DNA of 64,000 bases from Psychroserpens algicola (GTDB taxonomy: Bacteria > Bacteroidota > Bacteroidia > Flavobacteriales > Flavobacteriaceae). The translations under genes and the position numbers were made by a program. The first letter of the stretch is position 1; every line of letters begins with the position of its first letter. Positions 1,321 through 6,647 of the stretch are shown here, piece by piece. The DNA lies in contig NZ_JACNMJ010000009.1 of NCBI RefSeq assembly GCF_014526325.1, forward strand, positions 1-64,000. The letters are read 5' to 3'. A model generated the notes under the pieces. The model was given only the letters and a program-made list of their open reading frames with translations, ran no database searches and was not told the origin of the DNA.

Positions 1321-2475
1321 TTACCAAGTATACTTTTTCTGCTTAGCTTGTGTTTTAATGGCTTTAATCATGGCGTTTTCCAGACCATTATCATCAGTAG
1401 TTTGCTGCGCTTTGATATAGGCTCTACGTTTTTCGTTTAATTCCTGAATATCTTTTTGTATGGTCTCACGTTCCTGACGCTTCTTAGCTACATAAGCTTT
1501 TATTTCTGATATGCTTTTGCCTTTCAATTCTTTTGGGAGTTCTTCTTTTTTTAAGCTATCATATTTGAAATCTTTTTCTTGTTCGGCATCGACCAAATCC
1601 CAAGTTGAATTGGTATATAAATGTGAACTTTTACTTACTGTACGACTCACAGCATTTTCTTGACTGTAGCCCATAGCATTAACATCCTGCTCTGCTTGTA
1701 ATGCCATTTTTTGATGTCCAACTTGACCATAAGCCACATAAGTTTTATTGAGTTTTTGATTTAAATTTAGAATTTTATCGTCGTATGGTGATGCGACATA
1801 AGTTGTAGCATGATTATGATTAATAGCCATGTAATCACCATGTGCCAGAGTTGCTCCATCTTTCCAGTAGGTTGAAATACCTTGGTTGTAATCACCACAA
1901 AATATAGTATTGACAGTCACGTCGTTTTTATGTGCTTGTTTTGCAGCATCTTGATAGTTAATCTTACCTTGCGTAAAAGGTTCGTTTCCTGCAATAAAGA
2001 TTAGTTTAAGGTCGTCTGGATTGTTTCCCCATTTAAGTTGATTTAAAGAGGTTTGAATCACATGACCACAGTATTCGTTTCCGCCATTGGTTGTCAGTGA
2101 AAACAATTGTTTTGAAATTTCATCAAGGTCGCTACTAAATGCTAAAACCTGTCTGATGTAGCCTTCATCACTATTTAAATTATCATTTCCGTATTCGTAT
2201 AAAGCGATTTCCAGATTTGGTTTTTCATCACCGCATTTTGCATAGGAAAGTTCATTTACAATATCCCAAAGCTGGGCTTTTGCTTGATCTATAAGTCCGT
2301 CCATACTATTGCTGGTATCTAATAACAATGCCACTTTAATAAATTGATGGTTGGGTTTATGTGCGTTTGTTTCAGCTAATGCCAGAGGCTTAGTTTCTTT
2401 TTTCTCTTTGGCATTGCAGGACAAAAAGCTCATCATGCAAAGTGAGATTACGAGTGTTTTAATTATTGTTTTCAT
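1321..2475 (-). CDS. VWA domain-containing lipoprotein
   Basis: 384 residues. A lipoprotein signal (hydrophobic stretch, then FLSC with Cys20) is followed by a von Willebrand factor A domain from about residue 46. The MIDAS metal-binding motif is visible as DTSNS at 53-57, preceded by VALLL. The C-terminal third is Lys/Glu-rich and probably coiled coil (about 310-365). VWA domains usually mediate metal-dependent protein binding, so this is likely a periplasmic or surface lipoprotein adhesion/assembly factor. It lies 38 bp downstream of the SIMPL-like gene on the same strand, so they may be one transcript. The exact role is unknown. Confidence 0.8.
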   Translation of the reverse strand: MKTIIKTLVISLCMMSFLSCNAKEKKETKPLALAETNAHKPNHQFIKVALLLDTSNSMDGLIDQAKAQLWDIVNELSYAKCGDEKPNLEIALYEYGNDNLNSDEGYIRQVLAFSSDLDEISKQLFSLTTNGGNEYCGHVIQTSLNQLKWGNNPDDLKLIFIAGNEPFTQGKINYQDAAKQAHKNDVTVNTIFCGDYNQGISTYWKDGATLAHGDYMAINHNHATTYVASPYDDKILNLNQKLNKTYVAYGQVGHQKMALQAEQDVNAMGYSQENAVSRTVSKSSHLYTNSTWDLVDAEQEKDFKYDSLKKEELPKELKGKSISEIKAYVAKKRQERETIQKDIQELNEKRRAYIKAQQTTDDNGLENAMIKAIKTQAKQKKYTW

Positions 2476-2513: not shown

Positions 2514-3530
2514 CTAATTGGTTTGTAATGCTTTGATGTCGATAGTTCCATTTGGAGATACGACGTAATATTTGTGCTTAATTTCAGTTTTAACCACGGG
2601 TTCTGGTTTTACTTCTTTTGGTTTTGGCGAATATTGTAGCCTGATGTTCATGCCTATCTGAACTACAGGTTCTAGAATAGATGGGTTGACAACCACATCA
2701 TAATTTTCATAGGATAAAGGCTGGTAGTAATACGATGTTTGTTTTTTAGCCGTTGTAATGCCTCTGTTTTTTTTAATAGCTTCAAATGACACACTGTTAA
2801 AAGCCTGATAACTTTGATAAAAATCTTTTGGGAAATAGCAATACTGGTCATCTGCAATAGCTACATTATAATTAGCTAAATCAAAACCTAATACTTTGTA
2901 ATATGCCTTTTTTTCTTCAATGAGTTTTAAAAGTTTAGTTTGAAGGTTTTTATACACTTCAGCAATATGTTCTATATAATAATCCACTTTCACCAAATTG
3001 TAGATTTCGCTTTTGGCACAGGCTGTTAAAATGGATTCAAATTGACTTGTTTTAGTAAATTGAATATGGAGGTTTTGTTGGAGTTCGAATCCGTTTGGCA
3101 CTTCTGTATATGTTTTACTGAAGAGTTTTTTTTGAACTTCAATTTCATAATTTGGAACAAATGAAATAACATCAACAGCAACATCATCATCGGTTATTCC
3201 TAAGGGTTTCAATTGACTTTTTATGTTTTGGATTCTTTGATTGATAAGTAGAGCTGTACTGTCTGCCGTAGGTCCAATTTGGGATACGTTAAAAATTGCG
3301 GTATATGTTGTTGCCTGTACATTTTGTAAGGCCTTTACATCAATAAACACATGAGTGCTAGGTGTCAGAACCTTATTAATATTTTGTTGTACTGTTGGAT
3401 TGTAAATGGTGGCATTACCAGATAGTAGGATATTTTGTCTTGAGATTTGATCATAGTTACCTTTATGCTGAGCAAATGAGGTAAAGAAGCAAACACAAAT
3501 TAGCAAAAGACTAAGTGTTTTAGTTTTCAT
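2514..3530 (-). CDS. Exported SIMPL (DUF541)-like protein
   Basis: 338 residues with a clear signal peptide (residues 1-20, ending SFAQ). Residues about 35-190 resemble the SIMPL/DUF541 family: a beta-rich start, then alternating helices with the GITDDDVAVDVISFVPNYE region that matches the usual GI..DI.T....P.YE pattern. The rest has no recognised domain. It would act in the periplasm or outer membrane. It is upstream of and co-directional with the VWA lipoprotein gene. The SIMPL call rests on pattern recognition only and is moderate. Confidence 0.55.
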   Translation of the reverse strand: MKTKTLSLLLICVCFFTSFAQHKGNYDQISRQNILLSGNATIYNPTVQQNINKVLTPSTHVFIDVKALQNVQATTYTAIFNVSQIGPTADSTALLINQRIQNIKSQLKPLGITDDDVAVDVISFVPNYEIEVQKKLFSKTYTEVPNGFELQQNLHIQFTKTSQFESILTACAKSEIYNLVKVDYYIEHIAEVYKNLQTKLLKLIEEKKAYYKVLGFDLANYNVAIADDQYCYFPKDFYQSYQAFNSVSFEAIKKNRGITTAKKQTSYYYQPLSYENYDVVVNPSILEPVVQIGMNIRLQYSPKPKEVKPEPVVKTEIKHKYYVVSPNGTIDIKALQTN

Positions 3531-3590
3531 TATTTTCGATTGTTTTTTGATTAATGCTGTAAATCTATTGGCAACTTTTTTTAATAAAAA

Positions 3591-3674
3591 ACGACAATGA
3601 GTAAAGTCATGTGTTGGTTGAGTAAGCTAGAACGTCAAATGAGTAAAGCAGGTTATTTAACGGGTGAATTTTTA
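3591..3674 (+). promoter_or_regulatory. Putative LytTR-regulator operator: three TGAGTAA boxes with 21-bp period
   Basis: TGAGTAA occurs at 3598, 3619 and 3640, exactly 21 bp apart, with a degenerate fourth copy CGGGTGA at 3661. Copies 1 and 3 share the longer AATGAGTAAAG. Direct repeats about two helical turns apart are the known binding mode of LytTR-domain regulators, and the downstream operon encodes one. The operator role is inferred. A 37-codon open frame (3597-3710) runs through the same bases. Confidence 0.6.
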
Positions 3675-3743
3675 CTATATCGAGAAGGTCTATTTTATTT
3701 AATCAATTAAAGTATGTAAGTTTATTCCGTTCAAGATATTTTA

Positions 3744-5912
3744 ATGAAGCAATTACTTACATATAGTCTTTTATTACTGCTGTTTTTTCCTTCAGAAATT
3801 CTAAGCGCTCAGCAACGAGAAGACGCTATTGAAAAGCGAAAGGCAGCCCCATTGTTTACTATTAGAGGTTCGGTAAGAGAAAGCGACACCTATAAGCCAA
3901 TTTCAAAAGTTAATATTGAAGTTAATGGAGGAGCATACACGCGTACCGATTTAGATGGTTCCTTTTTAATACAAGCACGTAAAGGAGACGAACTGGTAAT
4001 TAGGCACAAAGATTTTGAAACGGTTTATTACACCATTCAAAGTAATGAACGAATTACAGTAGAAGTTGAGCCTGCTAAAGAAAAATTGCAAACGGAGACT
4101 ACTTTTAAAAGAGATATCAAACGGTTTAATAGCTTAATTGATTCGGTGACGAAGTACAAAAAACTCGATGTTGAGAAAAGTATAAGTTTTGTAGGAGAAG
4201 CACTGTCACAAAGCAACTCTAAGAAACAAAATGCTGAAGCCTATTTGGTTTTGGCCGAAGTGTATATGCATTGGAAACAATATGATTTAGCAGTGGCTAA
4301 TTTTAGAGTAAGCCTCGAAAATGTTGAGACCAATCATGCTAAATTGGGACTGGCGAAAGCTTACGGACTCAATAAAAATTATCAAGAAAGTATTGACACC
4401 TATAATGCAATCAACAAAAAAATATTGAGTAACTATCAGTTAGTAGCATTATATGAAGGGCTTGGTGATACGTATTTTAGTATTAAAAACTATGACGCAT
4501 CTATTGAGGCTTACCAGCAAGGGCTTACTATTGCAAACAAGCATTTAATTAAACCCAAAATAGTAGATCTAAACTCTAAAATCGCTCAAGGTTATAATTC
4601 TAGCGGTAAGGTTGATAAAGCGGAAACGTTCTTCGGAAATTCACTTGGTTTAGCCGAAAAGGAAACTAAAAAGAGAGCATTAGAAGAAAAGGTCACTGTA
4701 GCCGATTTCCAGAATACCAATCGAAATTACTCTGAAGAAATACAATTAAGAAAGGAAATTGTAGAAGATGTAAAAGATGTACAAAGAGACTCTGTTATTG
4801 TTAATGAGAGTCCGTTAACACTTCAAAAACAAAATTATAAAATTGGAAACGCTTATTTTTTACAGAAAGATTATGCCAATGCTATTCCGTATTTAGAGAA
4901 AAGTATTGAAGAGGCTGAAGCCAACCAGGATTTAGTAGTAAAAAAGGATGCTACCAAAAAGTTATCAGATGTCTATGTCGATGCTGGTGATTTTGAAAAA
5001 GCCAAAGCAACTTTTGAGTCTTATAAAAATACTGTAGATGAACTCTATATCAAACGCGAACAGGAGTTGTCGCAAGCCGATCGGTTTAGACGAAATATTA
5101 TTCAGCAACAAAACAGAATTACAAGTTTAGAAAGTGATCGTGAACTCACCACAAGTTTGGCAAGCGAACGTGATAAAAATCAACAGTTAATTATTTATTC
5201 CTTAGTTACTGGACTCATTTTATTGTTGATCATGGCATTTTTTATGTTTAAATATATCAAACAACAACGATTAGCAAATAATTTACTAGCTCTGAAATCC
5301 TTGCGAAGTCAGATGAATCCACATTTTATCTTTAATGCTTTAAACTCTGTTAATAGTTTTATTGCAAATAATGATGAGCGTACGGCAAATAAATACCTAT
5401 CAGATTTTTCACATTTGATGCGAGCGGTTCTAGAGAATAGCGAAGAAGATTTTATACCCTTAGAAAAGGAGATAGATTTACTGGATTTATATACCAAATT
5501 AGAGCACTTTCGATTTCAGGATAAGTTTGACTATAGCATTATTGTTAATGAAGATGTTGCGGTTACCGAATATCAAATTCCACCGATGTTATTACAACCT
5601 TATATCGAAAATGCGGTATGGCATGGTTTGCGTTATAAAACTGAAAAAGGACATTTAAAAATCACCATAGCCAAAAAAAGTGAAACTGAAATAACGATCA
5701 CCGTTGCCGACGATGGTATAGGTAGAACACGATCAAAGGAATTAAAAACCTCACATCAACTTAAGCAGAAGTCAAAAGGAATGGGTAATATTAAAAAGCG
5801 TGTCGCCATTTTAAATAATATGTATAAGGATAAAGTAGATGTGTTTATTGATGATTATCAAGATGCAGAAGATGCTGGAACAAAAGTTGTTGTAACCCTA
5901 AAAAAAGACTAG
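3744..5912 (+). CDS. TPR-containing LytS/YehU-type sensor histidine kinase
   Basis: 722 residues. Order of parts: signal peptide (1-22); a carboxypeptidase-regulatory-like beta-sandwich (about 37-105, beginning FTIRGSVRE); several TPR repeats (about 150-440); a coiled-coil linker; one membrane helix (about 482-505); a His_kinase domain with the SQMNPHFIFNALNS box, phospho-acceptor His527; and an HATPase domain with QPYIENAVWHG (about 618) and DDGIGRT (about 657). This is the LytS/YehU class that signals to LytTR regulators. The next gene, starting directly after the stop, is such a regulator. The large extracytoplasmic sensor with a TonB-receptor-like N-terminal domain suggests detection of an envelope or secreted component; the ligand is unknown. 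Confidence 0.92.
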   Translation: MKQLLTYSLLLLLFFPSEILSAQQREDAIEKRKAAPLFTIRGSVRESDTYKPISKVNIEVNGGAYTRTDLDGSFLIQARKGDELVIRHKDFETVYYTIQSNERITVEVEPAKEKLQTETTFKRDIKRFNSLIDSVTKYKKLDVEKSISFVGEALSQSNSKKQNAEAYLVLAEVYMHWKQYDLAVANFRVSLENVETNHAKLGLAKAYGLNKNYQESIDTYNAINKKILSNYQLVALYEGLGDTYFSIKNYDASIEAYQQGLTIANKHLIKPKIVDLNSKIAQGYNSSGKVDKAETFFGNSLGLAEKETKKRALEEKVTVADFQNTNRNYSEEIQLRKEIVEDVKDVQRDSVIVNESPLTLQKQNYKIGNAYFLQKDYANAIPYLEKSIEEAEANQDLVVKKDATKKLSDVYVDAGDFEKAKATFESYKNTVDELYIKREQELSQADRFRRNIIQQQNRITSLESDRELTTSLASERDKNQQLIIYSLVTGLILLLIMAFFMFKYIKQQRLANNLLALKSLRSQMNPHFIFNALNSVNSFIANNDERTANKYLSDFSHLMRAVLENSEEDFIPLEKEIDLLDLYTKLEHFRFQDKFDYSIIVNEDVAVTEYQIPPMLLQPYIENAVWHGLRYKTEKGHLKITIAKKSETEITITVADDGIGRTRSKELKTSHQLKQKSKGMGNIKKRVAILNNMYKDKVDVFIDDYQDAEDAGTKVVVTLKKD

Positions 5913-6647
5913 ATGAAACTAAAATCTATAATCGTTGAAGACGAAGAAACAAGCCGGACAATCCTTAAAAATTACATTGCTAAATACTGTCCAAATGTAG
6001 AAGTTTTGGGTGAAGCCGCTAATATCGAAGAAGCTTTGGTTTTGATTCGTAATACCGAATTGGACTTGGTCTTTTTAGATGTTGAAATGCCTTATGGTAA
6101 TGCATTCGATTTATTAGATAAAGTGGGTGATATTAGTTTTGAAACTGTTTTTGTTACCGCTTATAACCATTATGCTATTGATGCTTTAAACGCACACGCT
6201 TCCTACTATTTAATGAAACCCATTTCAATTGATGAACTCATCAAAGCTGTTGATTATGTCACTGAAATCAGAACAAAAGAAGACGCTTTACAAGATCAGG
6301 TTTTAGTGCCTAAAACGAATAGTGTTAATGGGAAGATTACCATTCCGCAACAAGATGGATTTGAAGTCTTGGAAACTGCCGATATTTTGTACTGCAAAGC
6401 TGATGATAATTACACCGAAATTTATCTCAATACCAATAAAAAGAAACTGGTAAGTAAAACGTTAAAATATTTTGAAGAAGCATTGAGCGATAGCAGTTTT
6501 GCGCGTGTTCATAAAAGTTATCTGGTTAATGTCAATGAAGTTAAGAAATACATAAAAGGCAAAGGAGGTAGTGTGGTATTAAGCAATGGCAAACAAATTA
6601 TGGTATCTGCGTCTAAAAAATCAGATTTGTTATCTTATTTTAAATAG
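5913..6647 (+). CDS. LytTR family response regulator
   Basis: 244 residues. Receiver domain (1-120) with acidic pocket VEDEE at 9-13 and phospho-acceptor Asp56 in LVFLDVEMP; LytTR DNA-binding domain at about 145-244 (begins GKITIPQQDGFEV, contains YCKADDNYTEIYL). Its ATG abuts the TAG of the kinase gene, so the two are translated from one message. It should bind direct repeats with a 21-22 bp period; such repeats are seen upstream of the kinase gene (3598-3667), suggesting autoregulation. The regulon beyond this operon is unknown. Confidence 0.93.
   Translation: MKLKSIIVEDEETSRTILKNYIAKYCPNVEVLGEAANIEEALVLIRNTELDLVFLDVEMPYGNAFDLLDKVGDISFETVFVTAYNHYAIDALNAHASYYLMKPISIDELIKAVDYVTEIRTKEDALQDQVLVPKTNSVNGKITIPQQDGFEVLETADILYCKADDNYTEIYLNTNKKKLVSKTLKYFEEALSDSSFARVHKSYLVNVNEVKKYIKGKGGSVVLSNGKQIMVSASKKSDLLSYFK

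Follow-up and report, generated by a model that had tools for sequence, protein, structure and literature searches.

The 21-bp repeats between the SIMPL-VWA genes and a kinase-regulator operon of Psychroserpens algicola most probably form a LytTR-type operator, which would serve the SIMPL-VWA promoter, a regulon of mostly predicted envelope proteins and an RNA, and probably also the kinase-regulator operon itself (we put this reading at roughly 0.85). The array, its geometry, its conservation, its targets and its co-occurrence with the kinase can be read directly from the DNA. The following features of the window, i.e. the whole stretch of 64,000 nucleotides that was analyzed, are relevant here.

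1321..2475, minus strand: VWA-domain gene, putative lipoprotein (lipobox by eye), predicted co-target
2514..3530, minus strand: SIMPL (DUF541) protein gene, predicted first target
3560..3567, minus strand: predicted SIMPL-VWA promoter, -7 element TAGATTTA, exactly 30 bp after box 1
3588..3590, minus strand: predicted SIMPL-VWA promoter, -33 element TTT, 7 bp after box 1
3598..3604, minus strand: box 1, the one nearest to the SIMPL-VWA promoter, TGAGTAA on the plus strand and TTACTCA when read toward SIMPL, conserved in relatives
3619..3625, minus strand: box 2, middle of the array, degenerate in some congeners
3640..3646, minus strand: box 3, proximal to the kinase promoter, conserved in relatives
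3691..3731, plus strand: conserved kinase promoter block with the -7 element TAAGTTTA at 3717-3724
3744..5912, plus strand: sensor histidine kinase, 722 aa, with TPRs, His_kinase (PF06580), HATPase_c and a sub-threshold CarbopepD_reg_2 match
5913..6647, plus strand: receiver-LytTR response regulator, 244 aa, predicted binder of the boxes

A PorP/SprF gene is also present in the window.

The box array and the two predicted promoters beside it

The first-pass annotation had described three TGAGTAA boxes starting at 3598, 3619 and 3640 with a period of exactly 21 bp, which proved correct on re-reading, and a LytTR regulator in the operon downstream of them, which is present at 5913-6647 behind the kinase (Pfam E values of 2.7e-23 for His_kinase, 7.9e-21 for LytTR and 1.2e-17 for Response_reg). 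A search of the window for the 21-bp pair finds it twice, as two overlapping pairs, and 100 dinucleotide-preserving shuffles do not contain it at all. A fourth, degenerate copy had also been proposed at 3661; positions 3661-3667 read CGGGTGA and are not conserved in a 30-locus alignment inspected by eye, and this copy is therefore dropped. Read on the minus strand, the array takes the form TTYACTCAT-N12-TTYACTCAT, which is the LytTR-type direct repeat that had been expected, with 9-nt repeats, an N12 spacer and a period of 21. Published LytTR sites consist of 9-11-nt repeats with 11-13-nt spacers located just upstream of the -35 element, as described in excerpts of PMC4847170 and PMC6193735. 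The boxes have this repeat length and spacing, and their position, as judged from the sequence, is likewise just upstream of a putative -35/-33 element.

Alignment of relatives had been suggested as a check, and when the regions upstream of 30 kinase genes are aligned with MAFFT, the boxes persist while the spacers vary. Information also lies mostly in the box columns of the 62 arrays with a positive score, although these were placed by the box PWM and are thus biased toward the boxes, a bias from which the 30-locus MAFFT alignment is free. Among 70 kinase loci, a set which excludes those of G022 and G032, the array beside the kinase outscores every shuffle in 64; the remaining six (L400, L409, L416, L434, L435 and L436) score below the best shuffle, and the genus PWM score is negative for 8 of the 70. 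RNA structure over 3560-3745 was no better than in shuffles (z 0.53).

The boxes sit in a divergent intergenic region and face the minus-strand SIMPL gene, a point that was overlooked in the first-pass annotation. In relatives without SIMPL the VWA gene itself is the divergent neighbour, and TAnnTTT, the divergent -7 element, is found at +30 in 52 of the 57 loci whose neighbour is a VWA or SIMPL gene. Taking all 65 pair sites in the loci examined, which were not selected for a promoter, 39 have TAnnTTT at exactly +30 from the last TTYACTCA, another 10 have it at +51 (inner pair) and 16 at neither position, and TTT lies at +7 in 48. In the opposite direction TAnnTTT was found at +30 in none of the 65 pair sites and no offset exceeded 4. 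The resulting consensus unit is TTYACTCAnTnAAA-N7-TTYACTCATT-N5-TTT-N20-TAnnTTTR, derived from 46 sites of which 39 were picked for their -7 element; the -33 TTT is present in 45 of them. Because TAnnTTTG spans -12 to -5 according to an excerpt of PMC9723704, the predicted start lies 42 bp after the box, and if the -7 element spans these positions the proximal box would lie at about -49 to -43 of the SIMPL-VWA start. The orientation of the boxes and their fixed 30-bp distance to the -7 element suggest that the divergent SIMPL-VWA promoter is the main target.

A scan for pairs of boxes, which had been proposed as a further check, was carried out in 23 congeners, where TGAGTRA pairs at N14 number 59 and occur in 22 of the 23 genomes. 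All spacings from N6 to N26 together give 174 matches, i.e. about 5.8 for each spacing other than N14, a comparison made from per-genome totals in which some N14 pairs are counted at N10 and the other spacings are raised by a repeat in G002 and by a conserved coding stretch. These other spacings served as the null in place of a backward-pattern control, which was discarded because ARTGAGT overlaps the real motif AATGAGTRA. The G002 repeat (G002:C1:1885981-2070615, minus strand) comprises 7 exact copies and 3 variants of TGAGTGATCATCTTTTTACGTTTGAGTGA, all on the same strand within about 185 kb; it is unrelated to the operator and is perhaps a cassette or gene-family array.

On the kinase side, counted from the kinase start, the boxes occupy about -131 to -83. 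The first-pass annotation had predicted autoregulation, and it might be argued that control of their own LytTR operon is the main function of the boxes and that the divergent promoter is incidental. Indeed, box 3 and the kinase -7 element are 77 bp apart in 55 of the 70 loci, 76 bp in 6 and 87 bp in 3, the last being 77 plus about one helical turn (in 6 loci this -7 element was not located), and this distance is kept although the spacer, as seen by eye, varies in sequence between genera. In addition, five loci from five genera (L399, L409, L430, L431 and L433) have lost the divergent -7 element and show no VWA or SIMPL gene in the fetched stretch, yet they retain the array and the 76-77-bp distance; the array of L409 is one of those under the best shuffle, and the stretch of L431 begins at a contig end. 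In the other four a PorP-type gene which points toward the array immediately precedes the kinase operon, and there is no divergent partner. However, the boxes point away from the kinase, the -7 element follows at +30 or +51 in the TTYACTCA direction in 49 of the 65 pair sites and at +30 in the other direction in none, the divergent -7 element is intact in nearly all loci with a VWA or SIMPL neighbour (see above), and in the own genome no match of the promoter model R1 (see below) up to E 10 is directed at the kinase. We therefore consider it improbable, with perhaps one chance in ten, that autoregulation is the main function. Since the distance is kept in 64 of the 70 loci and the array in the five loci without a visible divergent gene, autoregulation of the kinase-regulator operon is likely as a second role of the array, so that the earlier prediction would stand in this reduced form.

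The kinase promoter block at 3691-3731 (ATTTTATTT..CAATTAAAGTATGTAAGTTTATTCC) shows stronger conservation than a -7 element would require, and a AAAGTGCGTATGTTTA-like core of it persists beside kinases of about 50% identity; the block is perhaps a second binding site.

Predicted targets of the promoter and their link to the kinase

The model R1, a 74-nt sequence model of the promoter, was built from 34 training sites, three of which come from outside the genus. That the boxes would provide a searchable motif for a regulon was confirmed by five clear sites in the own genome (E values of 1.6e-12, 1.7e-12, 2.1e-11, 2.0e-8 and 7.6e-4, the next being 0.006), the top three of which belong to the training set and the last two of which do not. 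The site in the window ranks first; the other predicted targets are a DUF6146 protein, two CarboxypepD_reg proteins of 260 and 216 aa and an alpha-2-macroglobulin-like protein, and the 216-aa protein carries a Por_Secre_tail and is followed by an M48 peptidase. A weaker site (E 0.17) lies upstream of a DUF4139 gene.

The 23 congeners contain 124 R1 matches at E < 1e-3, 121 of which were readable and three without locus. Six clusters take 103 of the 121 downstream frames (18 lie outside): a CarboxypepD-linked cluster of 45 members, a DUF6146-type cluster of 20 members from 20 genomes, a SIMPL cluster of 13, an alpha-2-macroglobulin-like cluster of 12, a cluster of 945-aa CarboxypepD proteins with 7 and a VWA cluster of 6. 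The largest of them pools several protein types through single linkage, the DUF4139 and YfbK-like VWA proteins included, and example targets gave Pfam matches to DUF4139/DUF4140 and to YfbK_C with vWF_A. Judging from these families and from leader-like starts, the regulon appears to consist mostly of predicted envelope proteins. In the CarboxypepD_reg 'MRT' genes (L242:4281-5130 and orthologs) the ATG coincides with the predicted transcription start, which suggests that the mRNAs of this group are leaderless.

A collection-wide scan for exact pairs yielded at least 116 stretches, mostly unrelated or tandem-repeat loci (e.g. Symploca) among the matches listed. Rescanning 37 of those loci with R1 gave a match at E 0.01 in 8, including Tenacibaculum adriaticum and three Flavobacteriaceae records.

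The supposed linkage of the motif to this particular LytTR system gains support from co-occurrence over 195 genomes: 66 contain both R1 matches and the kinase (scored as present at E of at most 1e-80), 6 only R1 matches, 6 only the kinase and 117 neither. Because the array next to the kinase already supplies one match, the stricter requirement of two or more matches is preferable, and this is found in 56 of 72 genomes with the kinase versus 0 of 123 without it. Fisher values for this co-occurrence overstate independence because the genomes are related. One locus, L420, stems from the same genome as L025 and was removed before co-occurrence, the -7 distance, array information and the 37-codon frame (see below) were counted. 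One of the six genomes with R1 matches only is G036, whose promoter match has an E value of 3.3e-7.

Several LytTR proteins are encoded in flavobacteria and binding by the 244-aa regulator is a prediction, so a different DNA-binding protein, e.g. another LytTR paralog, might bind the boxes instead. This seems quite unlikely, as the motif follows this very kinase across the 195 genomes and the array that scores above every shuffle adjoins it in 64 of the 70 loci. The last alternative, which we regard as hardly credible and have rejected, takes the repeat for the seven-codon period of a 37-residue peptide: the corresponding frame at 3597-3710 exists and is open in the window, but it is not kept open across the 70 loci (only the window and the misplaced locus L435, whose array was not located, retain all 37 codons), its product has no Pfam match, and the conserved columns track the boxes and not the codon position. 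Since the frame is closed in nearly all relatives and the fourth copy is not conserved, the boxes are taken as an operator, in agreement with the preference already expressed in the first-pass annotation.

A structured RNA among the predicted targets

In five congeners R1 matches were found upstream of one conserved sequence and no gene. Two full copies of this sequence gave folding z values of -5.6 and -4.5 and a copy missing half of the closing stem gave -1.7; when five copies are aligned with MAFFT, two-sided changes occur in 10 of the 45 predicted pairs. A search model built from four copies detected the RNA in 30 of the 195 relatives with E values of at most 8.4e-7; a limit of 0.01 brings the number to 33, the extra three being weak. 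Of the 30, 29 possess the kinase, the exception being G037. Among 397 genomes of the family, a set which overlaps the 195 relatives, 38 gave a match to the RNA at 1e-4. The own copy is located at G000:C9:290369-290512 (= L375:1501-1644), the 30 copies being L369-L398.

In the alignment of these 30 sequences pairing holds for 93.1% of the cells and 40 of the 44 pairs vary on both sides; the covariation score reaches 0.512 versus 0.04-0.12 when slid. RNAalifold's own structure of the same alignment has two-sided changes in 37 of 41 pairs; both of these counts use an alignment that was fitted to the RNA model. In 12 of the 30 copies the same strand carries an R1-type site (E up to 0.1) within roughly 150 nt upstream of the RNA, that of L374 being weak, and 11 of the 30 lie directly 3' of the apparent end of a DUF4139 gene (by eye, confirmed by Pfam for the own copy).

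Five RNA-bearing loci matched no Rfam family at its gathering cut-off. The sole sub-threshold match inside the RNA, in three loci searched to E 5, was to L19-Flavobacteria (L161:1684-1705, 21.0 versus 31.5 bits, E 4.9), and a plasmid search with the RNA gave no match. The small RNA Rfp18 of Flavobacterium psychrophilum, as an excerpt of PMC9723704 describes it, is likewise a conserved flavobacterial RNA with several stem-loops; compared by description alone, it may or may not be the same RNA.

We lean toward the view that a so far undescribed structured RNA with a length of about 145 nt belongs to the regulon and would act as a trans-acting or mRNA-stabilising arm of an envelope response. It would be placed downstream of a two-box LytTR promoter of its own or immediately downstream of the regulated DUF4139 gene, and would consist of a closing stem that doubles as a terminator, inner hairpins and a highly conserved GUCUAA loop.

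Comparison with known LytTR systems and proposed mechanism

With a PF06580 kinase adjoining a receiver-LytTR regulator, the system is a two-component system of the LytS/LytTR type, as are BtsSR and YpdAB. The best NCBIfam match of the regulator is BtsR, with 108.6 bits and thus under the cut-off of 246. The targets of BtsSR and YpdAB are transporters. In contrast, the sensor described here consists of TPRs with a weak CarbopepD match, and the targets are mostly predicted envelope proteins. The LytS family is defined by a LytS-type multi-pass sensor domain; no such domain was found here at E 0.001, and the TPR and sub-threshold CarbopepD sensor places the kinase outside the LytS family proper. 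Nor is this a LytTR Regulatory System (LRS), in which the partner of the LytTR regulator is an inhibitory membrane protein and not a kinase, since a kinase is present here. A comparable repeat geometry is known from the AgrA and PlnC promoters.

According to excerpts of PMC4847170 and PMC6193735, the promoters of HdrR-hdrRM and YpdB-yhjX likewise have direct repeats of about 9 nt with spacers of about 12 nt, ending shortly before a -35-type element. Unlike in these known LytTR promoters, a three-box array lies here between two divergent promoters, the promoter is of the TAnnTTTG type, the box is TTYACTCAT and there are many target genes. The 'LRS-like' LytTR operons of Bacteroides, also a member of Bacteroidota, have 11-nt direct repeats 11 nt apart, located 11 bp before a TGTA-19-TATCTTTG promoter, and comprise a membrane protein and a membrane-anchored LytTR regulator (excerpt of PMC6193735), whereas a kinase and a receiver-LytTR regulator are found here. 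Our literature search found no defined regulon for any LytTR system of Flavobacteriaceae.

The identity of the binder, the sign of regulation, the signal and autoregulation are those parts of the following model that we infer. The adjacent TPR-sensor kinase would phosphorylate the 244-aa regulator, which would bind the 21-bp direct repeats and, once bound, aid RNA polymerase at the minus-strand SIMPL-VWA promoter, where the proximal box is directly upstream of the predicted -33 and -7 elements. The same box-box-promoter unit would control the genes for the DUF6146, CarboxypepD_reg, alpha-2-macroglobulin-like, YfbK-like VWA and DUF4139 proteins and the structured RNA, and the array would, from its other side, probably also tune the kinase-regulator operon.

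The analysis provides an exact operator-promoter grammar and a target list for one sensor. This list holds several orphan families, namely SIMPL, DUF6146, DUF4139, the YfbK-like VWA, alpha-2-macroglobulin-like and CarboxypepD_reg proteins, in addition to the structured RNA, and because all of them are tied to one sensor, these families would become testable as one pathway.
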